Part shown: piece by piece, positions 4,057 to 23,249 of the stretch
Layout of the letters: each line of letters begins with the position of its first letter
Position numbering within the stretch: position 1 is the first letter of the stretch
Origin: a virus
DNA: 23,249 nt
IMG/VR virus record: IMGVR_UViG_3300012920_005821
Location: 1-23,249 of that record
Strand: one strand, 5' to 3'
Program-made: the position numbers and the translations under genes
Notes under the pieces: generated by a model
Database searches by the model: none
Told to the model about the DNA's origin: nothing
The model's input: the letters and a program-made list of their open reading frames with translations, nothing else

Positions 4057-6195
4057 ATGGGTTTATTTGATTTTGATTTAAATAAGTTAAAAAGTTTTGA
4101 TTACAAGAAAGTAGGTCAAAAACAAGGTGAATACTTTGGTGAAGACAATGCAACAGGATTTACACCTAATAGACAGGCAGGTGATACGACAGAATACATA
4201 TCAAACTCTACCACAAAGTTAGGTCTCGATGGTATAAACTTTCCAGGACCAGTTAATTATTTTCAAGATGATAATGCAACAGGATTCACTATTGGTAGAC
4301 AACCAGGAGATGAAACTGAATATAATACTGAATCAAGTATATATCGTGAGGGTTTTCCAGGACCTGTTGATTTCTTTCTAAACACAAATGCTACTGGTTA
4401 TACTTTGAATAGAACTGAGGGTGACCCAACAGAATATATTTTAGACCCAAACTCATCAATTTATAAACAAGGTTTTCCAGGACCTGTTGATTATTTTTTA
4501 AATACAAATGCAAATGGATTCACAATAGGAAGAAAAGAAAAAGACCCAACAGAATTTATTAATGATGGAACTACAGGTAAGTTTGATGATGGAATCGGTA
4601 ATAATGAGGGTTCTTCACAAATAATAGTCAATCAAGGATATGCAGGTTCAGAACCATTAGGTTTAGGTCAAACTTTCACAACACCACGAGGTGATGTAGT
4701 ATCAGGTAAAAAGATTGTAGGGTATGGTGATGAAAGTAATGATGTTGATTCACAAGAATTAATACCATTGAAACCAGGACAAACACTCGAAGACCAATAT
4801 AATAAATTTGGTGGGAATAAGGCACTAAGAAGAAGTGGTAAATTCAATTCAGATGTTTTTAATAATGAACCATTTATTATTCGTGATATAGGAGATGAGT
4901 ATGATGGTATTGAATTAGATGAGGGATTAACAAGAGGTGGAATATTACTAAATACTCAGAGAGGTCTTGAGGATAAAGATAGAATCTTAAAGTTCTTGGG
5001 TTCACCAAGAGGTTTGAGGTTTCTTGCAAAACAAACAATTTTACAAAAGGGTAATTCATTTTGGTTCACACGAGGATATAATGAATTATCTATGTTCTCT
5101 TCACCACCAGGATTAAATTCTTCTGAGTTAACCAACATAACTTCAATTGTTCGTGACATCACATCAACAAGACATAATCCAATTGGTTTAACTTCAAGAC
5201 TTAGATATGAGGATACGAGTTTAGAAACAGATTTACCAGATATCGCAACAGAAATACAAGGAACTGGAAAAACTGATGAAGATAATAAAGAAATAAATAA
5301 TGCATTTTCAAGATTTGTATCTGGAGTTACAAGTGGTGTTAGTGAGTTTGCAAGTAATCTTAGTAGTGAGGCAAAATTATTTATTAACGAGGGTCAAAAA
5401 GCTCTTGATAAGGCAAAGGGTAAAACAAATCTATCAGTTGAGGTTACACATGGTAGAGACTTACAAGTTCCTTATGGTGGTAAGTTTGGTGATTTAAAAA
5501 CTGAAAAACTACCAAAAGATTTTGTTAAATTTAGAATCAGAGATGCAGTGAATGGTAAGTGGATTATCTTCCCTGCATTCTTAGAAGATATTAGTGATAG
5601 TTCAACTGCAGAATATTCACAAGAAAGATATATTGGTAGACCAGATGCAGTTCATATTTATACTGGATACTCAAGGAACATTAGTTTTAATTTCAAAGTA
5701 GTTGCCATGAGAAGAAATGAAATACCAATTATTTGGGAAAAATTAAATTACTTAAAAGGATTAACCACACCAACATTTAGAAAAGTTTTCGAGGGTGATA
5801 CTGAATTTAGACCAATATCACCATACATTTATTTAACCATTGGTGATATGTTTAATAACACACCAGGTTACTTCAGTAGTGTTAATATTAATACACCTGC
5901 AACAACAACATGGGAAATTTCAGATGGAGTTCAGTATCCACAAGTTGCGGATGTTGCACTTGAATTTGTATACATTGGTAAAACACTACCAAACTCTCTT
6001 GGTAAACATTATGAAATACCTTGGTTAACCGATGATGGTGTAGGTGCAGGAAAATTCGCTACATTTGGTGAAAGTGACCCAACTGATGAAAATAATCTCA
6101 CACCAACAAGAGGAAACTATGAAATAGATGGTAAGAACTTAGATTTCGATAAGACAATCGGAAGTTCAGTAAGTAACATTTATAAGGATGCATAA
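4057..6195 (+). CDS. Tail tube cap / baseplate protein, gp48/gp54-like C-terminus with N-terminal repeats
   Basis: This 712-residue protein starts one base after the tape measure stop. The C-terminal part (about residues 460-655) has the look of T4 gp48/gp54 tube-initiator proteins: a strand-rich domain with F-P-A-F-L-E-D-I-S-D, then Y-I-G-R-P-D-A-V-H-I-Y-T-G-Y-S-R-N-I-S-F-N-F, and P-Y-I-Y-L-T-I-G-D-M-F. Those T4 proteins cap the hub and nucleate the tube. T4 gp48 is about 364 residues, so this protein is roughly twice as long. The extra part holds four imperfect N-terminal repeats (separate entry) and an unassigned middle of about 280 residues. A ready alternative is another tube-associated baseplate protein of the same fold. 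The stop codon shares one base with the next ATG. Confidence 0.68.
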   Translation: MGLFDFDLNKLKSFDYKKVGQKQGEYFGEDNATGFTPNRQAGDTTEYISNSTTKLGLDGINFPGPVNYFQDDNATGFTIGRQPGDETEYNTESSIYREGFPGPVDFFLNTNATGYTLNRTEGDPTEYILDPNSSIYKQGFPGPVDYFLNTNANGFTIGRKEKDPTEFINDGTTGKFDDGIGNNEGSSQIIVNQGYAGSEPLGLGQTFTTPRGDVVSGKKIVGYGDESNDVDSQELIPLKPGQTLEDQYNKFGGNKALRRSGKFNSDVFNNEPFIIRDIGDEYDGIELDEGLTRGGILLNTQRGLEDKDRILKFLGSPRGLRFLAKQTILQKGNSFWFTRGYNELSMFSSPPGLNSSELTNITSIVRDITSTRHNPIGLTSRLRYEDTSLETDLPDIATEIQGTGKTDEDNKEINNAFSRFVSGVTSGVSEFASNLSSEAKLFINEGQKALDKAKGKTNLSVEVTHGRDLQVPYGGKFGDLKTEKLPKDFVKFRIRDAVNGKWIIFPAFLEDISDSSTAEYSQERYIGRPDAVHIYTGYSRNISFNFKVVAMRRNEIPIIWEKLNYLKGLTTPTFRKVFEGDTEFRPISPYIYLTIGDMFNNTPGYFSSVNINTPATTTWEISDGVQYPQVADVALEFVYIGKTLPNSLGKHYEIPWLTDDGVGAGKFATFGESDPTDENNLTPTRGNYEIDGKNLDFDKTIGSSVSNIYKDA
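4126..4557 (+). repeat. Four tandem protein repeats of about 40 residues
   Basis: Within residues 24-167 of the tube-cap-like protein, a unit recurs with spacings of 42, 38 and 40 residues. Its core is [Y/F]-F, a short Asp/Asn-rich link, N-A-[T/N]-G-[F/Y]-T, two residues, R, then x-x-x-D-x-T-E-[Y/F]. Units 2-4 are preceded by F-P-G-P-V-[D/N]. The DNA copies have diverged at synonymous sites while the protein pattern is kept, so the repeats look maintained at protein level. Confidence 0.85.
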
Positions 6196-6488
6196 TGAGA
6201 TACGATAATAACAAAATTCTACAAGATGAAAATGGTAATCGATATCTAAACAGAACAAGATATCCTGTTGTTCCTATAAAGGACACAGATGTTTTGATTA
6301 ATGCAAAATATGGTATGAGTTATATGAATCTTGCCTATCAATATTATGGTAAAACAGAATTATGGTGGATTATCTCAAGGGCAAATGATAAAGTGAATGG
6401 TTCTGTATTTCCAACCATTGGTTCCCAAATAAGAGTTCCTATAGAAATAGGTGAAGTAATAACAGAATTTGAGAGATTAAATAAATAA
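6195..6488 (+). CDS. Baseplate protein with LysM-like domain (gp53/gpX-like)
   Basis: This 97-residue protein overlaps the previous stop by one base. The segment Y-G-M-S-Y-M-N-L-A-Y-Q-Y-Y-G-K-T-E-L-W-W (about residues 36-57), followed by I-S-R-A-N, V-F-P-T-I-G-S-Q-I-R-V-P, matches the pattern of the LysM-like domain found in T4 gp53 (baseplate wedge) and P2 gpX: repeated aromatic residues, a W-W pair, then G-x-x-I-x-V-P. It is shorter than T4 gp53 (about 196 residues) and closer to a gpX-type single domain. It would link tube, hub and wedge during baseplate assembly. The neighbouring hub gene begins two bases after its stop. Confidence 0.72.
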   Translation: MRYDNNKILQDENGNRYLNRTRYPVVPIKDTDVLINAKYGMSYMNLAYQYYGKTELWWIISRANDKVNGSVFPTIGSQIRVPIEIGEVITEFERLNK

Positions 6489-9486: not shown

Positions 9487-10179
9487 ATGAAAATCGATAT
9501 TTTAGATAAAGGTTATATAGAATTAGTGGATACACTTGGTGATGATTTAACACCAGTAAATGCCGCTCGTGTATCATTCGGTGGAAGAAGTGAAACATTT
9601 GAGGAGAAAGATAGAAAGTTATCTAAATTCTTAATCAAACATAAACACTTTTCACCATTCAGACATCAACATTGTATGTTTATCATTAAGGCACCAGAGT
9701 TCGTGATGAGACAATGGTATAAGCATGTGGTGGGTATTGAAACTACATCAAGTCATGTAACAAAAGACCATGCATGGAATGAGATTAGTGGTAGGTATGT
9801 TCCTTATGATGAATTCTATGAACCAACAGAGTTTAGAAAACAAAGTGATGATAACAAACAGGCGAGCGATGGGTTAGTTGATAATCAAAAAGAGATGAAA
9901 CAATTGTGGACTATCTCTCAACAAAATTCTATATCTGCATATAAAGAAATGTTAAAGAGTGGGATGGCAAAAGAACAAGCTCGTAGTATATTACCACTTA
10001 CGGTTTATACAAAAGTTTGGTGGACTGCATCATTCCAAAGTGTTATGAATTTTATAGAATTACGAGATGAACCTACTTCACAAGTAGAGATACAAGATTA
10101 TGCAAAAGGGTTGAAAGAAATTATGTTGAAAACATTTCCTGAAACCACTAAATTATGGAGTGAAATTTATTTAGATTGA
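9487..10179 (+). CDS. thyX: Flavin-dependent thymidylate synthase ThyX (divergent)
   Basis: This 230-residue protein should make dTMP from dUMP using FAD, NADPH and methylene-tetrahydrofolate, feeding phage DNA synthesis. Visible motifs are H-F-S-P-F-R-H (54-60), R-Q-W-Y-K-H (75-80), N-E-I-S-G-R-Y (98-104), and late A-R-S-I-L-P-L-T-V-Y-T (165-175) plus I-E-L-R-D-E-P-T-S-Q-V-E-I (190-202), the end of the dUMP site. The ThyX signature R-H-R-x2-S-x-N-x2-S-x-R-Y is interrupted: the RH-like pair (K79-H80) is followed by V instead of R, and about 13 extra residues precede N98. The late block has A-S-F-Q where many ThyX have N-x-R. The length suits the family. It starts the metabolic block and overlaps the next gene by one base. 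Confidence 0.9.
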   Translation: MKIDILDKGYIELVDTLGDDLTPVNAARVSFGGRSETFEEKDRKLSKFLIKHKHFSPFRHQHCMFIIKAPEFVMRQWYKHVVGIETTSSHVTKDHAWNEISGRYVPYDEFYEPTEFRKQSDDNKQASDGLVDNQKEMKQLWTISQQNSISAYKEMLKSGMAKEQARSILPLTVYTKVWWTASFQSVMNFIELRDEPTSQVEIQDYAKGLKEIMLKTFPETTKLWSEIYLD

Positions 10180-11066
10180 TGACAGGTTGGATATTATATA
10201 AAAAGGATATAAGTGAATCATACGAGACTCAGAGATTAGTAGAGGAGTTTGAGAAACAAGATATCAAGATTCATGTGGTGAACCCACAAGATGTAGATAT
10301 TTTGGTGGATAGAGAAGATAGAAAGAGTATCAGAGTAAAGGGTAAGTCAAGAATATTACCAGATTTTGTAATTCCAAGAACAGGTAGTGGAACAACTTAT
10401 TACATTAAGGCAATTATTCGTCATTTAGAGAGAATCGGTGTGATACTTATTAATGGAAGTTATGCAATAGATAATGTTAAAGATAAGTTATATTCACAAC
10501 AAATACTTGGACAATCAAATCTACCTGTTCCTAAAACTATGTTGGTGAAACATCCAATTGATGTAGATTTTATTCAGAAAAGTATTGGGTTTCCTTGTAT
10601 CATTAAAACATTAAGTGGTTCATTTGGTGCAGGTGTGTTTATGGCAGATAACAAAACACAATTAAAACAATTATTAAAAATGGCAGAAATCACCAATGAG
10701 AATTATGATATTATCATTCAAGAATATGTGAAAGATAGTTATGGAAAAGATTTAAGAGTATTAGTAATTAATGGTAAAGTAGTGGGTTGTATGATGAGAC
10801 AATCAGTAGATGATGATTTTAGGGCAAACATCACTCGTGGTGGTGAGGGTATTCCTTATCAGATTACAGAAGATATTGAGTGGATTGCAGGTGAATCATC
10901 AAGGTTGTTAGATTTGGATATCGCAGGTGTTGATTTATTATTTGATAATGGTGGATACAAAATCTGTGAAGTAAATTCATCACCTGGTTTTGAGGGTATG
11001 GATAAATATTGTAAAACAAACATTGCAGAACAGATAGTTACTTATGTGAAATACAAAATAGGTTAA
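10179..11066 (+). CDS. RimK-like ATP-grasp ligase
   Basis: ATP-grasp enzymes of this type join an amino acid (RimK: glutamate) to a carboxyl group of a protein or small molecule through an acyl-phosphate. The 295 residues show the full plan: N-terminal pre-ATP domain to about 98, I-D-N-V-K-D-K (97-103), P-V-P-K-T (116-120), ATP-binding C-I-I-K-T-L-S-G-S-F-G-A-G-V (140-153), I-I-Q-E-Y-V (179-184), D-L-R-V-L-V-I-N-G-K (191-200), R-A-N-I-T-R-G-G-E-G (215-224), and metal-binding C-E-V-N-S-S-P-G-F-E-G (263-273), close to the RimK/LysX motif. I chose the ATG at 10179, in the TGATG overlap with thyX, over the TTG three bases earlier. Substrate is unknown; candidates are ribosomal protein S6 of the host or a phage protein. 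All catalytic-looking residues are present. Confidence 0.88.
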   Translation: MTGWILYKKDISESYETQRLVEEFEKQDIKIHVVNPQDVDILVDREDRKSIRVKGKSRILPDFVIPRTGSGTTYYIKAIIRHLERIGVILINGSYAIDNVKDKLYSQQILGQSNLPVPKTMLVKHPIDVDFIQKSIGFPCIIKTLSGSFGAGVFMADNKTQLKQLLKMAEITNENYDIIIQEYVKDSYGKDLRVLVINGKVVGCMMRQSVDDDFRANITRGGEGIPYQITEDIEWIAGESSRLLDLDIAGVDLLFDNGGYKICEVNSSPGFEGMDKYCKTNIAEQIVTYVKYKIG

Positions 11067-12338: not shown

Positions 12339-12580
12339 AACTATCAGACATAGTTCAAGAGTTGGGTAAAGTTCAAACTGCAAAGGACAAACCACCTTTT
12401 AAAACACAACAGCAGATTGAAAACGAAGCAGTTACAAATCCAATGATTAAGAAAGTTGATTTCAATAAACCAACCGTAATACATATCTCAGATGAAGAGA
12501 TGGAGTTACTACATCAAGACAGAAGATTAGAAAAGGATGGAATCACAATAATATTTGGTGATGAAAAACGAACTAAGTAA
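12335..12580 (+). CDS. Small protein of unknown function
   Basis: This 81-residue protein starts in an ATGA overlap with the polymerase stop, behind GGAGAAA, so it is translationally coupled. I do not recognise it. It is hydrophilic with no membrane segment. The N-terminus M-K-L-S-D-I-V-Q-E-L-G-K looks like an amphipathic helix. The second half (V-I-H-I-S-D-E-E-M-E-L-L-H-Q-D) could be a strand-helix unit, ending in G-I-T-I-I-F-G-D-E-K. Its end overlaps the next gene by 20 bases in another frame. Coupling to the polymerase gene hints at a partner or accessory protein, by position only. Confidence 0.65.
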   Translation: MKLSDIVQELGKVQTAKDKPPFKTQQQIENEAVTNPMIKKVDFNKPTVIHISDEEMELLHQDRRLEKDGITIIFGDEKRTK

Positions 12581-14510
12581 AATACTAACCGAATTATCCT
12601 ATCGTGTTAGAGATGGGGTGCCTAATTTAAACAACGAACAACACTTAATTAAATTGTTTGATGTGTTGAAAGAGTTTAACTGGCCCATAGAAGCACGCAT
12701 AGAACTCATACACAATCTTACTGAATCTGAAGCAGGTGACCAAGCAAAGAAACTTGGATTAACACATATGGGATTTGGTAATTATGGTAAAGATGATAAA
12801 GTAACTCACACTTCAAAAGATGGTGAATTAGTTCCTGTCGGTGGAAGTGGAGGCGATGATAGTGAAAAAGAAGAAAAAGAAGCACCAAAAGAAGTCAAAA
12901 AGATTTTTGATGGTTCACAAAATTCAGTTAGAGATGGTTTGTTATATATGAGTGATGAAGATAAAAAATTATTTGAAGATTTTAAGAGTGATTTTATAAA
13001 GTTAAATTCTAATCCATCTAAAGAACTTGCAGAACAAATGGTAGAGAAATATGGTTTATCAGTAAGTTCAGGTAAAAAACCTAAAGTTTATATAAAAAAT
13101 ATAAATTTTGAAGCTAGAAAAATATTAGGACAAAATAATGCAACCGTATTCATTAAAGATACTATTGAGAAGGCATTAGGTGAACCATTAAAAGGTGCTG
13201 AAAAGGGAGTGGATGTAAAACAGGCAGTTACCACTACATCTAAACCAGATTTAGAAACTAAGAGGACTGCAAAAGAAGATGAAAGTGTAAAAGAATTATT
13301 CAGTAAAGAACCATACGATAGATTAAATCCTAACTTCCATCAAGTATTTGGGCCAGTAGATGATAAGGGTAATTTAATTTATCCGAGTGGTGGTAAAAAT
13401 GCAAAGGCATATCTAAAACAATCTTTATCTGAAAATAACTCAATCAAAAGAACAATTGAAAAATTAAAAGAATTAGAAAAATCAGATAATGTTAGTCCTA
13501 AGATAAGTGGTGCACTTGAAGAACATCAAAAAACTATGGAAAGTATAGTAGAGAAATATGATATTCCATCTAAAGAAGCATCAGAGGCCATTGGTAATTC
13601 ATATGCAAAGATGGCCGAAACAATAAATGTTGAAAGTCCAACAATTGCAGGTGCAATGATGAAAAATCTTGCAGAGTTTGCATTATATGATACTGAAATC
13701 GCTGCAGGTGATGAATGTTATTTACCATCAGATGGTTCCTTTCCAAGTGGTGATAAATTAAAAGTAACTCGTGGTGGTGGTAAAGTAGAAAGAGTTGCGT
13801 CAGTTAGTGTGAAGTATGGACGAAGTGGTAAATATGGTTCATTTGGATTTCCAGGTGAAACAGGACAATATCAAAAGTATCATCCGAATCCAGAATATAG
13901 AGATAGATTACATAGTAGACCAGGTGACGATGGATATGAGTTGGGTGTAAAGGATGACATCATAAATGATGATAAACAAATGGACAAAATAATAGAAGAA
14001 AGTGGATTGAGTGATGCCATAAAAGATAAAGATAAACTTTTAACTACTATTAGAAAAAATCTATCTGAGATTAAGAAACTAAAAGAAGAGATTGACTTTG
14101 AACAAAAACCAAAAAGAAGTTCAGGTAAACCACCTGCATGGAAACAATTAAATGTTCATAAGAAAAGAATTTTAGAATTAGAAAAGAAGTTGGCAGAAGA
14201 AATGAAAGATTCTATTGATGAAGATAAATTAAAAGAATTAGTTGGAAATGATAATGCAAAAGTAATAATGAGTAGACCAGGTTGTATGATAACTGCATTG
14301 ACATTTGCATCAACATTGACAACAAGTAATGGGTTAGATGTTATTGAACATAATCACCAAGAAATTAAAGATGGTAAATATGAAACTCATACTGATACTG
14401 CAGAAGATGGAACAATAGATTTAAAGAATTGGAAACTAACATGGAGAGCTTGGGATAGTAGAGCAGGTGGATTAATCGCCAGTTTCAATAGTGATAGGAA
14501 AGAATTATGA
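12561..14510 (+). CDS. Large protein of unknown function, possibly virion-associated
   Basis: This 649-residue protein is counted from ATG 12561; a TTG at 12555 adds two residues but is a poorer start. The first 55 residues (L-T-E-L-S-Y-R-V, G-V-P-N-L-N-N, H-L-I-K-L-F-D-V-L) and the next block (A-K-K-L-G-L-T-H-M-G-F-G-N-Y-G) resemble an N-terminal module I associate with uncharacterised large proteins of marine T4-like phages. There follow an acidic link (G-G-D-D-S-E-K-E-E-K-E), several charged helices, and near 375-450 a patch with A-G-D-E-C-Y-L-P-S-D-G and G-S-F-G-F-P-G-E-T-G. The last 120 residues hold two Cys and H-N-H (in I-E-H-N-H-Q-E) but no convincing nuclease motif. It overlaps both neighbours (20 and 4 bases). 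Function is not assigned; injected or internal virion protein is a guess. Confidence 0.75.
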   Translation: MKNELSKILTELSYRVRDGVPNLNNEQHLIKLFDVLKEFNWPIEARIELIHNLTESEAGDQAKKLGLTHMGFGNYGKDDKVTHTSKDGELVPVGGSGGDDSEKEEKEAPKEVKKIFDGSQNSVRDGLLYMSDEDKKLFEDFKSDFIKLNSNPSKELAEQMVEKYGLSVSSGKKPKVYIKNINFEARKILGQNNATVFIKDTIEKALGEPLKGAEKGVDVKQAVTTTSKPDLETKRTAKEDESVKELFSKEPYDRLNPNFHQVFGPVDDKGNLIYPSGGKNAKAYLKQSLSENNSIKRTIEKLKELEKSDNVSPKISGALEEHQKTMESIVEKYDIPSKEASEAIGNSYAKMAETINVESPTIAGAMMKNLAEFALYDTEIAAGDECYLPSDGSFPSGDKLKVTRGGGKVERVASVSVKYGRSGKYGSFGFPGETGQYQKYHPNPEYRDRLHSRPGDDGYELGVKDDIINDDKQMDKIIEESGLSDAIKDKDKLLTTIRKNLSEIKKLKEEIDFEQKPKRSSGKPPAWKQLNVHKKRILELEKKLAEEMKDSIDEDKLKELVGNDNAKVIMSRPGCMITALTFASTLTTSNGLDVIEHNHQEIKDGKYETHTDTAEDGTIDLKNWKLTWRAWDSRAGGLIASFNSDRKEL

Positions 14511-14984: not shown

Positions 14985-15417
14985 AATACGAAGTTTTTTG
15001 AAAATTGGAAATGGAGAGTATCGAGAGTAATTAACTCGATATGGGATTGACCGAATAATGGGTAGACTTTAGAAGCCCATAAGGTAATCTGAGATTAGTT
15101 CGTGGTGAACCTACTGAGGTGTAAATCATTTCGGTAGTTGAGACATCAATAATCTAATGTATCTTCTGTAAAAACAATAGAAACGATTCTATTGACCTTA
15201 TTGTGGGTAAGGGTAAAACTGAAGCCCCACTTTATGACTGAATAAACTAAACTCTGAGAGTTAAAGTATTCATATAGGAGTTGTATCCACTTCAATGGAA
15301 CTAACCATTCTGAGAAGAACCGAAGTAACTTTCGGATATGAAGTATAAGGTATAAAAAATCAGAGCGGAAGATTGTTGGTAATCGTTAGTCCAACATCCC
15401 CAAATTTTCCTACACTT
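14985..15417 (+). ncRNA. Large structured RNA, unrecognised class
   Basis: No coding frame is present here, but many helices are. A terminal helix pairs GAAAATTGG (15000-15008) with CCAAATTTTC (15400-15409, one bulged A), enclosing about 410 nt. Inside: TATCGAG/CTCGATA (15019-15025/15035-15041), ATGGG/CCCAT (15058-15062/15076-15080), TAATC/GATTA (15085-15089/15093-15097), CTACTGAG/TTCGGTAG with wobbles (15111-15118/15130-15137), CAATAGAA/TTCTATTG (15175-15182/15187-15194), GTGGG/CCCAC (15203-15207/15226-15230), AACTC/GAGTT (15250-15254/15258-15262), AATGG/CCATT (15294-15298/15305-15309), CCGAA/TTCGG (15320-15324/15331-15335), GTTGG/CCAAC (15375-15379/15391-15395). It lies between a promoter-like sequence and a strong terminator. 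It does not look like tmRNA, RNase P, tRNA or a group I intron by the motifs I can recall. A member of a large ornate phage RNA class, or a new one, is possible. Confidence 0.72.
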
Positions 15418-15601: not shown

Positions 15602-16360
15602 ATGGACTTAAATGCTATTCGTAAGAGGTTAAATCAACTTCAAACAACAAACAACAGAACATCAAGTCTTTGGAAACCACAACCAGGTAAAACTCAAATC
15701 AGAGTGGTTCCTTATGAATTTAATAAGGACAATCCTTTTATCGAGTTGTTTTTCCACTACAACCTAAACAATCGTTCCTATTTATCACCAATCAGTTTTG
15801 GTCGTCCAGACCCAATTGAAGAGTTTGCACAGAAACTCAAGGCAAGTGGTAATAAGGAAGATTATCAATTATCCAAAAAGTTGGAAGCAAAAATGAGAAC
15901 CTATGCACCTGTAATCGTTAGAGGTGAAGAGTCTCAAGGAGTGAAGTTTTGGGGATTCGGTAAAACCGTATACCAAGAATTACTTTCTGTAATCGCTGAC
16001 CCAGATTATGGTGACATTACAGACCCAGTTAATGGTCGTGACATTGTGGTAGAGTTTATCACTGCAGAGGAAAGTGGTGCTTCATTTCCAAAAACCAACA
16101 TTCGTGTTAAACCTAATCAAACACCTATTTCAGATGAACCTGAAGTATTAGAAAAAGTTAAAACATCACAACAAGACATTCGTGATATCTATCAAGAAAT
16201 GAGTTACGATGAATTAACAGATGTGTTGAATGAATGGTTAACACCAGGAGATAATGAAGAGGGTGAAGAGACTTCATCTGATACTATTTCAACTTCTGAT
16301 TTAAAATCTGAACCAAAGAAAGATACATCAGAGGCATTTGACGAGTTATTCAACTCATAA
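15602..16360 (+). CDS. gp32: Single-stranded DNA-binding protein, T4 gp32-like
   Basis: The product should coat ssDNA at the fork and during recombination and recruit helicase, UvsX and polymerase. The 252 residues show the gp32 plan: a basic N-terminus (M-D-L-N-A-I-R-K-R-L-N-Q-L), a core with L-W-K-P-Q-P-G-K-T-Q-I-R-V-V-P-Y and F-F-H-Y-N-L near residues 23-57, V-K-F-W-G-F-G-K-T-V-Y-Q (about 114-125), and a long acidic C-terminal tail (from about 215: D-N-E-E-G-E-E-T-S-S-D) used in T4 for protein contacts. It is shorter than T4 gp32 (301 residues), and I see no Cys/His cluster, so the T4 zinc site seems absent. The ribosome site AGGAG at 15589-15593 is strong. It begins the replication block. 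Confidence 0.9.
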   Translation: MDLNAIRKRLNQLQTTNNRTSSLWKPQPGKTQIRVVPYEFNKDNPFIELFFHYNLNNRSYLSPISFGRPDPIEEFAQKLKASGNKEDYQLSKKLEAKMRTYAPVIVRGEESQGVKFWGFGKTVYQELLSVIADPDYGDITDPVNGRDIVVEFITAEESGASFPKTNIRVKPNQTPISDEPEVLEKVKTSQQDIRDIYQEMSYDELTDVLNEWLTPGDNEEGEETSSDTISTSDLKSEPKKDTSEAFDELFNS

Positions 16361-16422: not shown

Positions 16423-17520
16423 ATGTCAGTAAATGATGTATTGGCCGATACTCTGGCCAGTAGTTTAAATAAAAAGTTCAAAGATACAAAGGTTGCATAT
16501 TTTCTTGATGGGAGTGATACAACACCAACAGATATCAAAGAATTTATCTCAACAGGTAGTTCTATGTTAGACTTGGCAATATCCAATAGACCTAATGGTG
16601 GTATTGCAGTTGGTAGAATCACAGAAATCAATGGTTTAGAATCAAGTGGAAAATCTCTACTTGGTGCTCATATCCTTGCAGAAACTCAAAAGAAAGGTGG
16701 AGTTGCAGTATACATAGATACTGAGACTTCTGTTTCACAAGAGTTCATGGAAGTAATCGGTTTAGACTTAAATAAAATGTTATATCTACACTTAGAAACC
16801 GTAGAGGATATATTCGAAGCGATTGAAGAAATTGTAACAAAAGTTCGTGAAAGTGACAAAGATAGATGTGTAACTATATTAGTTGACTCACTTGCCGCCG
16901 CTTCTACTAAAGTAGAGTTAGAGGCAGACTTTGATAAAGATGGTTGGGCAACTGCCAAGGCAATCATTATCAGTAAGGCGATGAGAAAGATTACCCAAAT
17001 GATTGGGAGAGAAAGAGTTGCTCTTGTATTTACAAATCAGTTACGACAAAAACTCGGAGTAATGTTTGGAGACCCTTGGACAACAAGTGGTGGAAAGGCA
17101 TTACCATTCCATTCATCTACAAGAATTAGATTGAAGAATATGGGACAAATCAAAGATAGTGGTAAGAATGTTCTTGGTATGAAGTGCAGAGCACAGATTA
17201 TTAAGAATCGTTTAGGCCCACCTTTGAGACATGCAGATTATGATATGTATTTCGATAGAGGTATTGATAACTATGGTGCATGGTTAACCGTATTAAAAGA
17301 ACATAAGTTAGTTAAAGTTGGTGGTTCTTGGTATACACTAATAGACCACAATGGAAACGAAGTTAAGTTTCAATCTAAAGATTGGGATGATATTATTACT
17401 GGTGATGAAGAGTTAAGAGAACATATATACAATCTCATTTGTGACAAGGTTATATTACAATACAAGGAAAAACTTGGTATTGATGATGTAGAGTTTACAG
17501 ATGAGGTTCTCGGTGACTAA
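16423..17520 (+). CDS. uvsX: UvsX/RecA-family recombinase
   Basis: It should form ATP-dependent filaments on gp32-covered ssDNA and catalyse strand exchange, the step that starts recombination-dependent replication in T4-like phages. The 365 residues contain Walker A G-L-E-S-S-G-K-S (71-78), V-Y-I-D-T-E-T (97-102 region), Walker B I-L-V-D-S (152-156), a RecA-like F-T-N-Q-L-R-Q-K-L-G-V followed by the DNA-binding loop region T-T-S-G-G-K-A-L-P-F-H, and a C-terminal domain with I-K-N-R-L-G-P-P. T4 UvsX is about 390 residues, similar. The start at 16423 follows GGAG (16412-16415). Its last 20 bases overlap the exonuclease gene in another frame. Confidence 0.93.
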   Translation: MSVNDVLADTLASSLNKKFKDTKVAYFLDGSDTTPTDIKEFISTGSSMLDLAISNRPNGGIAVGRITEINGLESSGKSLLGAHILAETQKKGGVAVYIDTETSVSQEFMEVIGLDLNKMLYLHLETVEDIFEAIEEIVTKVRESDKDRCVTILVDSLAAASTKVELEADFDKDGWATAKAIIISKAMRKITQMIGRERVALVFTNQLRQKLGVMFGDPWTTSGGKALPFHSSTRIRLKNMGQIKDSGKNVLGMKCRAQIIKNRLGPPLRHADYDMYFDRGIDNYGAWLTVLKEHKLVKVGGSWYTLIDHNGNEVKFQSKDWDDIITGDEELREHIYNLICDKVILQYKEKLGIDDVEFTDEVLGD

Positions 17521-18767: not shown

Positions 18768-18788
18768 ACATGATAATTATATTTGGTT

Positions 18789-20150
18789 ATGAGTGAATCT
18801 TTAATACAATACGGAACATCTTTTCAGAATAAACTTATTTCGAGTTTAATAACAGACTCAAAGTTTATTCAAACAATTGTTGATATCTTGGAAATATCAT
18901 ACTTCGATAGTGATTCAAGTAAATTTCTTATCAAGTCAATCAAAGACTATTTCAAAAAATATAAAACCACACCAACAATGGAAGCAATGAAAGTTATGAT
19001 TGATGATGTTGAGGATGATATTCTAAAGTCTTCAATAGTTGATAATCTAAGAAATGCTTGGGGTTATAGAGAGAGTCCTGATTTAGAATTTGTAAAAGAA
19101 AAATCACTTGAGTTCTGTAAGAACCAAGTTGTAAAAAGTGCAATCATGGAATCAGTTGAGTTATTGGAATCTCAAAAGTATGATGAGATAAAAACAATTA
19201 TTGATAAGGCTATGACTGCAGGTGTCGAAAGAGATATAGGACATGAATACATTACAGGTTTAGAAGAAAGACTAACACAACAATCAAGAAATACATTAGG
19301 AACACAATGGGATAGTGTTAATGAATTGATGGATGGTGGACTTGCAGGTGGTGAGTTGGGTGTGATTGTTGCACCTGCTGGTATTGGTAAATCATGGACT
19401 CTTCAGGCATTAGGTGCACATGCAGTCAAACAAGGTAAAACCGTAATACATTATACATTAGAGTTAAATGCTCAGTATGTAGGGTTAAGATATGATACAA
19501 TTGTAAGTGGACAACCAACAGGTAACTTACAATATTATAAAGACGAAGTGATGAAAAAGATTAGTCAGTTAAAGGGTGAGTTGATAATAAAATATTATCC
19601 AACAAGAACTGCAAGTGTAAACACTTTAACTGCACACTTACAACAATGTGAACTACAAGGTATTAAACCTGACATGGTATTAGTTGATTATGCAGACATT
19701 ATGAAATCAACACAACACTTCAATGAGAAACGACATCAAATAGGTCATGTGTATGAGGAGTTACGAGGTATGGCAGGTGAGTTTGATATACCAATATGGA
19801 CTGCATCACAGGCAAACAGAAGTTCACTTGAGGAAGAGGTTATCGGAGCAGACAAGGTTTCAGAGGATTATAGTAAAGTGATGACGGCAGATTTTGTTAT
19901 GAGTATGAGTAGAAAAGTAGAAGACAAGATAGCAAATACTGGTAGATTCCATGTTATTAAAAATAGATTCGGCCCTGATGGTATAACCTTTCCCGCAACC
20001 ATTAACACCAACACAGGTTTCATTCAGATTTATGAAACTAATACACAAGGTGGACGAGAGGCACAAGGTAAAATGAATAATGCGGATGAGTATATTCGTA
20101 AAACCTTGGCACAGAAGAAGAAAGATTTTGATGCAGGTGGGTTCGAATAA
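18789..20150 (+). CDS. gp41: Replicative DNA helicase, gp41/DnaB-like
   Basis: It should be the hexameric 5'-3' helicase moving on the lagging strand and interacting with primase. From ATG 18789 it has 453 residues; a TTG at 18783 is a weaker option and there is no clear ribosome site for either. The N-terminal helical domain (1-165) is followed by the RecA-like motor: W-D-S-V-N-E-L-M-D-G-G-L (174-185), Walker A A-P-A-G-I-G-K-S (195-202), Y-T-L-E-L (222-226), Walker B M-V-L-V-D-Y-A-D (296-303), S-Q-A-N-R near 346-350, and V-I-K-N-R-F-G-P-D-G near 394-403, the usual DnaB H4/arginine-finger area. T4 gp41 is 475 residues, so the length fits. A TATATTTG at 18778-18785 fits the Bacteroidota -7 consensus but would give a nearly leaderless message. 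Confidence 0.92.
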   Translation: MSESLIQYGTSFQNKLISSLITDSKFIQTIVDILEISYFDSDSSKFLIKSIKDYFKKYKTTPTMEAMKVMIDDVEDDILKSSIVDNLRNAWGYRESPDLEFVKEKSLEFCKNQVVKSAIMESVELLESQKYDEIKTIIDKAMTAGVERDIGHEYITGLEERLTQQSRNTLGTQWDSVNELMDGGLAGGELGVIVAPAGIGKSWTLQALGAHAVKQGKTVIHYTLELNAQYVGLRYDTIVSGQPTGNLQYYKDEVMKKISQLKGELIIKYYPTRTASVNTLTAHLQQCELQGIKPDMVLVDYADIMKSTQHFNEKRHQIGHVYEELRGMAGEFDIPIWTASQANRSSLEEEVIGADKVSEDYSKVMTADFVMSMSRKVEDKIANTGRFHVIKNRFGPDGITFPATINTNTGFIQIYETNTQGGREAQGKMNNADEYIRKTLAQKKKDFDAGGFE

Positions 20151-20269: not shown

Positions 20270-22282
20270 ATGGGACAAGGAAAATTTAAGTTATCGGAAA
20301 ACTTCATATCGAAGTATAAAAGAAAAAAGGCACCATTTGGTTTCAATGGTTTAGGAGAGTTAGTGTATATGAGAACTTACTCCAGAATAAAAGAGAATGG
20401 TAAAAACGAAAGATGGTGGGAAACCGTTCAACGAGTTGTAGAGGGAACCTATACAATGCAAATGAATCATATCGATTCACATCAATTAGGGTGGAACCCA
20501 TGGCAGGCTCAAAAGTCAGCACAAGAAATGTATGATAGAATCTTCAACATGAAGTTCTTACCACCAGGTCGTGGTTTATGGGCGATGGGAACACCAATCA
20601 CAGAAGAAAAGAATTTATACGCCGCACTAAACAATTGTGCATTTGTATCCACTAAAACAATCAAAGATGATTACTCAAAACCTTTCTGTTTCCTTATGGA
20701 TGCAAGTATGTTAGGTGTTGGAGTAGGATTTGATACCAAAGGAGCAGGGGAAATAATTGTTAAGGGTGTAGATAAAGATAGGGAAACTACTTATGTAATA
20801 CCAGATACTCGTGAGGGTTGGGTAGAATCTTTAAGGTTATTATTAGAAAGTTATTTTCATGGTCAACCAAGTGTTGTTTTTGATTATAGTGAAATTAGAT
20901 TAGCAGGTGAACCAATTAAAGGATTTGGTGGAGTAAGTTCAGGACCAGAACCATTGGAAGAAGTTCACGAAGATATTAGAAAAGTATTAGAGGGTAATAG
21001 TGGTAATCCAATCACAATCACAACAATCGTAGATATAATGAATCTAATCGGTAAATGTGTTGTTGCAGGTAATGTAAGAAGAACTGCAGAGATTGTATTT
21101 GGTGACCCACATTCAGAAGAATATTTAGATTTAAAAAACTATAAAGTTAATCCACATAGAGAACAATATGGGTGGACAAGTAACAATAGTATTTTTGCAG
21201 AACTTGGTATGGATTATACAGAGGCCGCAAAAAGAATTAATGATAATGGTGAACCAGGTTTTGCATGGTTAGATAATATGAGAAAGTATTCTCGTATGAA
21301 GAATGGTGGAGATAACAAAGACCATAGAGTAATGGGTGGTAATCCATGTTTGGAACAATCATTAGAAAGTTATGAATTATGTTGTTTAGTAGAAACATTT
21401 CCAAACAATCACGATTCATTTGAAGACTATGCAAAAACACTAAAATATGCATACCTATATGCAAAAACGGTAACTCTTGGTAGAACCCATTGGGCAGATA
21501 CCAATAGAGTGATGTTGAGAAACAGAAGAATTGGATGTAGTGTAAGTGGAGTTGCACAATTTATTACATACAAGGGTTTGAACGAACTAAAGAGTTGGTT
21601 GAATGATGGTTTTGATGTTATTCAACAATGGGATAAAGTTTATTCTGATTGGTTTGCAGTTCCAAAATCAATCAAAACCACAAGTGTAAAACCAAGTGGA
21701 ACCGTATCATTACTGGCAGGTGCAACACCAGGACTACATTATCCTGAAAGTCGTTTTTATATTAGAAGAATAAGATTATCAGTTAACTCAGAACTGATTG
21801 AACCTTTGAAAAAGGCAGGGTATAAAATAGAACCAGCATTTGGTTCAGAGGAATCAACATTAGTAGTTGAAGTTCCTGTTGATGTGGGTGAGGGAATTAG
21901 AACTGCAAAGGATTTAAGTATTTGGGAACAATTTAGTTTGGCCGCTTTCCTACAAAGACATTGGGCAGACAACCAAGTAAGTTGCACCGTAACTTTTAAT
22001 CCTGAGACAGAGGCAGACCAAATATCACCATGTCTAAATTATTATCAATATCATCTAAAGGGTATATCACTATTACCAAGACACGATTGGGGTGCATATC
22101 CACAAATGCCATATGAGGCAATAGATGAAAAAGAATATAATAAACAAATTAAAAAACTCGGAAATTTATCCTTTGGGGTTATCAAGAATGAGGAGGCAGA
22201 AGTAGATAAGTTCTGTAACAACGATAGTTGTGAGGTTCCATCATTCACAGGTGATAACGATGACCAAGACTATGCAAATTAA
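20270..22282 (+). CDS. nrdJ: Class II (adenosylcobalamin-dependent) ribonucleotide reductase
   Basis: It should reduce ribonucleotides to deoxyribonucleotides with a radical made from adenosylcobalamin, needing no oxygen and no second subunit. The 670 residues show N-N-C-A-F-V-S (C123, redox pair), N-P-C-L-E-Q (N358, C360 thiyl site, E362), C371 exactly 11 residues on, as C408 and C419 in the Lactobacillus leichmannii enzyme, V-K-P-S-G-T-V-S-L-L-A-G near 480, and a C-terminal C-N-N-D-S-C (C649, C654), the C-x4-C arm that re-reduces the active site. The arm and overall length fit the monomeric RTPR-like branch. The start follows AGGAG (20253-20257 region). Activity depends on cobalamin from the host or uptake, which is of interest given the next gene. 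Confidence 0.9.
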   Translation: MGQGKFKLSENFISKYKRKKAPFGFNGLGELVYMRTYSRIKENGKNERWWETVQRVVEGTYTMQMNHIDSHQLGWNPWQAQKSAQEMYDRIFNMKFLPPGRGLWAMGTPITEEKNLYAALNNCAFVSTKTIKDDYSKPFCFLMDASMLGVGVGFDTKGAGEIIVKGVDKDRETTYVIPDTREGWVESLRLLLESYFHGQPSVVFDYSEIRLAGEPIKGFGGVSSGPEPLEEVHEDIRKVLEGNSGNPITITTIVDIMNLIGKCVVAGNVRRTAEIVFGDPHSEEYLDLKNYKVNPHREQYGWTSNNSIFAELGMDYTEAAKRINDNGEPGFAWLDNMRKYSRMKNGGDNKDHRVMGGNPCLEQSLESYELCCLVETFPNNHDSFEDYAKTLKYAYLYAKTVTLGRTHWADTNRVMLRNRRIGCSVSGVAQFITYKGLNELKSWLNDGFDVIQQWDKVYSDWFAVPKSIKTTSVKPSGTVSLLAGATPGLHYPESRFYIRRIRLSVNSELIEPLKKAGYKIEPAFGSEESTLVVEVPVDVGEGIRTAKDLSIWEQFSLAAFLQRHWADNQVSCTVTFNPETEADQISPCLNYYQYHLKGISLLPRHDWGAYPQMPYEAIDEKEYNKQIKKLGNLSFGVIKNEEAEVDKFCNNDSCEVPSFTGDNDDQDYAN

Positions 22283-22295
22283 ATTTCACATACCC

Positions 22296-22330
22296 TACTG
22301 GCAGAAAACACACCAGTATAAAAATGTGTT
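22296..22330 (+). promoter_or_regulatory. Two competing hairpins upstream of the receptor gene
   Basis: TACTGG (22296-22301) pairs with CCAGTA (22313-22318), loop of 11. Alternatively AACACA (22307-22312) pairs with TGTGTT (22325-22330). The two cannot easily both form in a short leader. No T-run follows either. The first may end the reductase message; the pair could also act as a simple attenuator. The region is too short, and lacks the conserved B12-box, for a cobalamin riboswitch. Confidence 0.35.
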
Positions 22331-22359
22331 ATTCACAAGTAAACAACAAGGAGATGATT

Positions 22360-23249
22360 ATGAAATATCGTAATCTAATCGCATCAGTATTGATGATTGG
22401 TGGATTGTTCGCACAATCTATTCATGGAGTTATTACTGATGTAGACAATAAACCACTTGAGGGAGCTAATGTTGTAGTTGTTGGAACAGATTTAGGTGCA
22501 GTATCAGATGTAAATGGTATTGCTCATATTGATGTTCCCGCAGGAACCTATGATGTAACTGCTTCTTTTATTGGTTACTCTACTTTAACTAAATCAGTTG
22601 TTGTAGGGGATAGTATGACTACATTGAATTTCGTATTGGATTTTAATGTGGTTGCACTTACAGATGTTGAGGTGTTAGCATCTCGTGCATCTGAAACTAC
22701 ACCTGTTGCATACACTAATGTTAGTAAAGAGGAAATGGAAGTGAGATTGGGTTCACAGGACATTCCAATGATTCTTAACACAACACCAAGTGTATATGCG
22801 ACTCAACAAGGTGGTGGTGCGGGTGATGCTCGTATCAACATTCGTGGTTTTAATCAGAGAAATGTTGCAGTAATGATAAATGGAGTTCCACAAAATGATA
22901 TGGAAAATGGATGGGTCTATTGGTCTAATTGGGATGGAGTAGGAGATGCTACATCATCAATTCAAGTTCAAAGAGGTCTATCTGCTGTCAATTTAGCGAC
23001 ACCATCTATTGGTGGAACCATGAACATCATAACCGACCCAACATCTTTTGAAAAGGGTGGAAAGTTCAAACAAGAAGCAGGAGAGGGTGGTTTTCTTAAA
23101 ACTACTTTCAATTATAATACTGGTCTATTATTAAATGACAAGTTAGCTTTAAGTGGAACTATTGTTCGTAAAACTGGTGATGGAATAATCGATGGAACTT
23201 GGACTGATGCTTGGGCATACTACTTCGGTGGTTCATATGCTGTAAGTGA
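22360..23249 (+). CDS. TonB-dependent outer-membrane receptor (3' partial)
   Basis: Such receptors import siderophores, cobalamin, sugars or peptides across the outer membrane using energy from TonB-ExbBD. The 296 visible residues, open to the window end, show a signal peptide (M-K-Y-R, then L-I-A-S-V-L-M-I-G-G-L-F-A with cleavage near residue 19), a carboxypeptidase-regulatory-like domain (about 21-95: G-V-I-T-D, P-L-E-G-A-N-V-V-V, G-T-Y-D-V-T-A-S-F-I-G-Y), a TonB-box-like L-T-D-V-E-V (100-105), and a plug (about 115-228) with I-N-I-R-G-F, M-I-N-G-V-P, V-Q-R-G-L-S-A-V and I-G-G-T-M-N-I-I-T. The barrel begins after about 240. The start at 22360 has a strong AAGGAG; an ATG at 22354 is too close to it. 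Alanine and arginine codons differ from neighbours (more GCT and CGT), suggesting recent acquisition from a Bacteroidota/Marinimicrobiota-type host, or a chimeric contig. Confidence 0.9.
   Translation, partial: MKYRNLIASVLMIGGLFAQSIHGVITDVDNKPLEGANVVVVGTDLGAVSDVNGIAHIDVPAGTYDVTASFIGYSTLTKSVVVGDSMTTLNFVLDFNVVALTDVEVLASRASETTPVAYTNVSKEEMEVRLGSQDIPMILNTTPSVYATQQGGGAGDARINIRGFNQRNVAVMINGVPQNDMENGWVYWSNWDGVGDATSSIQVQRGLSAVNLATPSIGGTMNIITDPTSFEKGGKFKQEAGEGGFLKTTFNYNTGLLLNDKLALSGTIVRKTGDGIIDGTWTDAWAYYFGGSYAVS

Follow-up and report, generated by a model that had tools for sequence, protein, structure and literature searches.

The window analysed here, an entire IMG/VR record of 23249 bases that is classed as a linear fragment, ends within a gene of the TonB-dependent receptor (TBDR) type, and the locus raises the question whether a phage really carries such a receptor gene and, if so, which role the deduced protein might play during infection. 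Because the window represents the whole record and stops inside the gene, the receptor barrel cannot be read from the window copy. The features relevant to the genetic context are the following:

22360..23249, plus strand: TBDR gene, 5' third, with signal peptide, CarboxypepD-reg N-terminal extension, TonB-box segment, plug and first barrel strands; cut by the contig end
22348..22353, plus strand: ribosome binding site AAGGAG of the TBDR gene, recognised from the sequence; a GGAG-type site is present in 98/98 phage leaders
20270..22282, plus strand: class II adenosylcobalamin-dependent ribonucleoside-triphosphate reductase (NrdJ/RTPR type; TIGR02505, PDB 1l1l)
18783..20150, plus strand: DnaB-like replicative helicase upstream of NrdJ, part of the phage replication module (Pfam DnaB_C, 2.5e-15)
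16423..17520, plus strand: UvsX/RecA-like recombinase, bearing on the phage identity of the region (phrog_97, 3.6e-72)
15602..16360, plus strand: gp32-like single-stranded DNA binding protein (PF08804, 7.8e-15)
9487..10179, plus strand: ThyX thymidylate synthase, nucleotide-metabolism context (PF02511, 4.9e-38)

Phage context of the TBDR gene

The reading frame of the receptor (22360-23247, plus strand) is open at the contig end, leaving 296 amino acids visible. A domain search detected a signal peptide followed by the CarbopepD_reg_2 (2.1e-15) and Plug (5.4e-16) domains, in agreement with the first-pass annotation, which had also correctly described a start 77 bases past the stop of the reductase gene and a strong ribosome binding site. 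No NCBIfam cut-off was reached by the TBDR, and scans for sigma-70 promoters and terminators near the gene yielded nothing above chance. The upstream gene, formerly described as a phage-type reductase, is indeed a reductase, but its class has to be specified as II and adenosylcobalamin-dependent (364.5 bits against TIGR02505 with a cut-off of 340; PDB 1l1l at E 8e-101).

The phage identity of the window follows from the presence of gp32, UvsX, baseplate hub and tape measure families, as assigned by Pfam and PHROG. In the fragment available, the designation T4-like appears to hold at the level of these modules only; positions 20270-23249 gave zero DNA matches across 50,697 phage records, which include no close phage isolate. 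Additionally, a manA RNA (RF01745, 67.6 bits; 15202-15400, plus strand) was found just 5' of the gp32-like gene, as well as in the relatives L003 and L141. A gene for a RimK-like ATP-grasp ligase (PF08443, 2.4e-52; 10176-11066, plus strand) overlaps the end of thyX, and positions 12555-14510 (plus strand) encode a phage protein of 651 amino acids that has no Pfam or PHROG match. In the close relative L003 the replication operon contains a gene for a radical SAM/SPASM protein (5277-6407), which is missing at that place in the window.

Conservation of the NrdJ-TBDR junction

A scan of viral contigs, all of them metagenomic, revealed 307 stretches that encode TBDR relatives, and the best 80 of the 307 were fetched; the closest of these are up to 93% identical to the window copy. 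Full-length relatives comprise approximately 905-940 amino acids. In L003, where the protein has 912 residues, the gene is followed by those of a phage DNA polymerase B and a clamp loader. The nrdJ gene is located just upstream of the TBDR gene in 201/216 viral loci examined, and a family B DNA polymerase gene follows in 131 of the 141 loci with enough downstream sequence.

These data bear directly on the suspicion that the receptor gene stems from host contamination, from the assembly of a chimera or from a merely transient transduction. Its bacterial type and its truncation by the end of the window would suit such an artefact, but the identical junction occurs in about 200 contigs recovered from numerous metagenomes, the TBDR gene is followed by that of a phage polymerase, and the phage copies have a clade, a leader RNA and a record of purifying selection of their own. 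The recurrence of the junction rules out a chimeric join at NrdJ-TBDR, and an artefactual origin as a whole is extremely improbable. The first-pass proposal of genuine phage cargo is thus supported by phage gene families, conserved synteny and purifying selection.

Natural variants at the site between nrdJ and the polymerase gene show the TBDR gene as a cassette. The relatives L111, L120 and L121 (contigs of 17-96 kb) contain nrdJ directly followed by the polymerase gene without a TBDR gene; in some relatives a glutamine synthetase gene (L133, 6561-7547) lies between nrdJ and the TBDR gene, and in L290 a peroxiredoxin gene (1497-2066) occupies this place. The NrdJ-TBDR site has the appearance of a hot spot for cargo genes. 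In L274 and L306 the TBDR gene resides at another phage locus with no nrdJ nearby; the L306 contig also contains a tmRNA (RF00023, 111 bits; 9910-10319) and, near the TBDR gene, those of a peptide deformylase and a QueE-like radical SAM protein.

Origin and selection of the phage receptor

The nearest cellular TBDR genes belong to Ca. Neomarinimicrobiota (Marinimicrobia) and are 59-72% identical along their entire length. In a maximum-likelihood tree, 52 of the 53 phage representatives, together with one gene from a metagenome-assembled genome (MAG; L152), form a single clade inside Marinimicrobia (SH-aLRT 99). The remaining representative, L288, is placed outside this clade, yet the order NrdJ-TBDR-PolB is kept, so either one or two captures are possible. 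The L152 gene (986-3736), from a Marinimicrobia MAG and followed by another TBDR gene, may have passed back from a phage into the host or may have been binned erroneously. Since the phage genes are nested within Ca. Neomarinimicrobiota, this phylum is the likely donor and the likely host, the host assignment resting on gene origin. Most of 13 Ca. Neomarinimicrobiota genomes contain one TBDR orthologue scoring above 1000 bits (two in G007), while the other TBDRs in these genomes score at most 133 bits; among 120 drawn genomes of the phylum, 58 possess an orthologue with an E value below 1e-200.

Pairwise dN/dS values among the phage copies are about 0.1-0.2 (0.044/0.407 for the window versus L003), indicating that the phage TBDR is under purifying selection. 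Accordingly, a large family of uncultured marine phages carries a complete, selectively maintained TBDR gene from Marinimicrobia-type bacteria. The gene is host-derived, lies between phage genes in many genomes and is under selection, as is characteristic of an auxiliary metabolic gene.

Predicted fold and conservation pattern

As the window copy is truncated, a structure model was made for the L003 protein. The model (mean pLDDT 84.1) displays a plug and a barrel that is read as 22-stranded, and its top PDB matches are the TonB-dependent transporters PqqU, Fiu, YncD and FhuA, which do not identify the ligand. With a signal-like N terminus, a TonB box, the Plug domain and the predicted 22-strand barrel, the protein has the parts of a TonB-dependent transporter. 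It shares these parts and the N-terminal extension with the CarboxypepD_reg_2 and Plug transporters of the Bacteroidota/FCB group, whose cellular orthologues are 44-72% identical to the phage TBDR; unlike them, it is encoded in a replication operon behind a phage-specific RNA leader.

The TonB-box segment EVLASRA is invariant in 14 phage copies. When strand topology was assigned manually on the basis of the predicted secondary structure, the phage TBDRs showed mean pairwise identities of 94% (TonB-box segment), 90% (plug), 75% (strands) and 73% (extracellular loops), compared with 62% for the loops of host orthologues. This pattern looks like that of a retained transporter and differs from the usual surface of a receptor in an arms race.

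A covarying pseudoknot in the TBDR leader

The 77-base gap between the two genes contains a conserved H-type pseudoknot that was overlooked in the first reading of the sequence:

22297..22330, plus strand: H-type pseudoknot RNA in the TBDR leader (covariation; covariance model)
22297-22301/22313-22317, plus strand: pseudoknot helix P1
22307-22312/22325-22330, plus strand: pseudoknot helix P2
22318-22324, plus strand: A-rich linker of the pseudoknot

In the window the element spans 34 bases and consists of two interleaved helices (ACTGG-CAGAA-AACACA-CCAGT-ATAAAAA-TGTGTT). Every phage locus whose leader could be read contains this element (155/155). Across 39 distinct leader sequences, 96.7% of the cells are paired compared with 88.1% in shuffles, 34 cells are changed on both sides compared with 7.3, and the covariation score is 0.265 compared with 0.116, none of these values being attained in the shuffles (0/500 each). 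When the pairing partners were slid by 1-3 columns, pairing fell to 18-54%, a drop that arises partly by construction because the structure was drawn from the same sequences; the double changes provide the stronger evidence.

The covariance model R1 matches the window at 22284-22336 with 60.3 bits. One strong copy (50-67 bits) was detected directly 5' of the TBDR gene in 13/13 TBDR-bearing phage records and none in three TBDR-less phage relatives, whereas 199 Marinimicrobia genomes yielded only noise of at most 26 bits. An exact-pattern scan revealed 73 further pseudoknot loci, in 70 of which the TBDR gene is the next gene, while in the remaining three the contig stops within a few codons. Moreover, the pseudoknot accompanies the receptor gene to its other loci in L274 and L306 and hence is a feature of the TBDR gene rather than of nrdJ. 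These data clearly indicate a covarying pseudoknot that is specific to the phage TBDR gene.

The pseudoknots of preQ1-I and of the T4 gene 32 leader, the latter an operator for a phage protein, resemble the TBDR leader in having a short P1 hairpin, an A-rich linker and a P2 pseudoknot before the start codon. The same layout is found in the small DUF805-type pseudoknot RNA, the best relevant Rfam match, which scored only 12.6 bits against a cut-off of 51.1; no Rfam family was assigned to the leader. Unlike all three RNAs, the TBDR pseudoknot occurs only before phage TBDR genes. The leader RNA is previously undescribed as far as the open-access literature is concerned, in which no paper on it or on phage-encoded TBDRs was found; earlier reports elsewhere are possible. 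A T4-late-promoter-like sequence, TATAAAAA, was rejected as a promoter candidate, as it is present in just 9/98 leaders and therefore reflects the pseudoknot sequence. The minimum free energy of the leader was unremarkable (z -0.39), as calculated with a program that cannot model pseudoknots.

The TBDR leader combines conserved structure with compensatory changes, as is expected of a riboswitch; it is not classed as one here. It could act as a metabolite sensor, as an operator for a phage protein in the manner of the T4 gene 32 leader or as a stability element.

Candidate substrates and role during infection

The gene neighbourhood of cellular orthologues points to a nucleotide-derived substrate. 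Outside Marinimicrobia, the next gene encodes a secreted or lipoprotein nucleotide pyrophosphatase/phosphodiesterase (PF01663) in 18 of approximately 70 loci, located downstream on the same strand and typically within 6-500 bases. In a draw of 118 Bacteroidota genomes chosen regardless of TBDR content, 12 contained a strong orthologue, and in 11/12 a PF01663 pyrophosphatase gene was detected on the same contig at a distance of at most 7 kb, in seven of these 11 directly downstream on the same strand; the two counts overlap because a few genomes of the draw were already in the first set. The nearest relatives of the partner enzymes are the nucleotide-cleaving ENPP1 and ENPP3 and snake venom phosphodiesterase; the partners retain the TF nucleophile motif as well as a conserved Tyr, the residue that lines the nucleobase site in ENPP1.

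The link with the pyrophosphatase is strong in Bacteroidota, in Calditrichota and in related groups. Among Marinimicrobia it consists mostly of a co-occurrence above expectation (39/58 versus 24/62 genomes, p = 0.0015), although uneven assembly completeness could bias this comparison, and the two genes are directly adjacent in two genomes only. A deoxynucleoside kinase gene lies near the Marinimicrobia TBDR copies L153, L162 and L199; none was found when it was sought in the phages. There was no SusD partner among the identified recurrent neighbours, and no TBDR for nucleosides is named in the part of a TBDT review considered here (PMC11658791). In L480 and L483, genes resembling pyrR, pyrB and pyrC of pyrimidine biosynthesis (named by eye) are situated 4-7 genes upstream of the orthologue. 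Judged from the cellular operon partners, the odds that the substrate of the TBDR is nucleotide-derived are about even.

Cobalamin import was considered first because NrdJ requires adenosylcobalamin: a phage-encoded receptor for this cofactor could enable B12-poor hosts to make phage deoxynucleotides, and nrdJ is directly adjacent to the TBDR gene in the 201 loci mentioned above. A survey of Marinimicrobia, however, pointed to another receptor, as the cobalamin riboswitch RF00174 is located directly 5' of a different TBDR gene in 7/7 loci with a readable adjacent receptor. The riboswitch-linked TBDRs (L232-L238) constitute one homologous family of BtuB-like proteins whose similarity to the phage family is confined to the plug; the phage TBDR is not orthologous to them, and no cobalamin riboswitch was detected near 11 host orthologues. 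Furthermore, nrdJ is kept in the TBDR-less relatives, and the TBDR gene occurs apart from nrdJ in L274 and L306. B12 import is therefore disfavoured, and we regard it as very unlikely. The scavenging of phosphorus or of cofactors such as NAD, FAD, dinucleotides and other organophosphates, not specifically of DNA precursors, is the nearest alternative to a nucleotide-derived substrate. Marine phages are known to be limited by organic phosphorus, and ENPP5, ENPP1 and venom phosphodiesterase are close relatives of the ENPP-type phosphodiesterase that forms the operon partner. Such scavenging fits almost as well because the substrates of these enzymes also include NAD, dinucleotides and further phosphodiesters. 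The position of the phage gene in a replication and nucleotide operon and the deoxynucleoside kinase neighbours in some hosts argue against it, so that this alternative appears doubtful.

The first-pass annotation had offered three roles, namely boosted import during infection, a change of the host surface that blocks competing phages and a receptor decoy. TBDRs such as FhuA are classic phage receptors according to the review cited above (PMC11658791), and the phage TBDR is homologous to a single host TBDR; by installing its own allele, a phage might exclude competitors that use the host receptor or leave a decoy on debris. Such masking is disfavoured because the extracellular loops of the phage proteins are as conserved as the strands and exceed those of the hosts in identity, which also led us to reject superinfection exclusion by loop variation; moreover, exclusion alone would not require the strictly kept TonB box and plug. 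Neither masking nor decoy gained positive evidence, and a role of this kind is unlikely. Boosted import is the best supported of the three, with a near-invariant TonB box and plug, conserved loops and orthologues paired with a nucleotide pyrophosphatase.

We therefore favour, with a probability of about 0.5, the interpretation that the phage TBDR is a complete and working importer from a Marinimicrobia-type host that serves as an auxiliary metabolic gene in a DNA-synthesis operon, raises the uptake of nucleotide-derived solutes and is controlled by the pseudoknot. The gene would have been captured from a Ca. Neomarinimicrobiota-type host and kept, and the order of helicase, NrdJ, TBDR and DNA polymerase B would constitute a phage DNA-synthesis operon. 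In the infected cell, the protein would be exported to the outer membrane and couple to the host TonB-ExbBD system, raising the uptake of nucleosides, nucleotides or oligonucleotides, and these additional solutes may relieve a shortage of DNA precursors. The leader pseudoknot would control translation of the TBDR or the stability of its mRNA. A more far-reaching version, in which an outer-membrane nucleotide importer is governed by its own metabolite-sensing pseudoknot, a new riboswitch class that opens TonB-driven entry of DNA precursors when the pool is low, must be considered speculative.

If the favoured interpretation is correct, phages of an abundant marine phylum, most of which is uncultured, would reprogramme host metabolism not only through enzymes and periplasmic proteins but also through energy-coupled import at the outer membrane. 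A testable substrate class is thereby proposed for a TBDR family without an assigned one, along with a new small RNA that is seemingly tied to one phage gene. Phages likewise keep host-derived genes under selection for the uptake of nutrients, pstS of cyanophages being an example, and for nucleotide metabolism, and the TBDR gene stands beside those of NrdJ, PolB and a helicase; the deduced protein differs in being a predicted energy-coupled outer-membrane importer instead of an enzyme or a periplasmic binding protein. A TBDR fold or sequence is also present in other virus records, namely A0A8D9FQQ5 from an uncultured marine phage (annotated as TBDR in the structure library) and the jumbo phage records LR745206 and LR756502, but with 12% identity by fold alignment or about 30% by sequence these proteins belong to a different TBDR branch.
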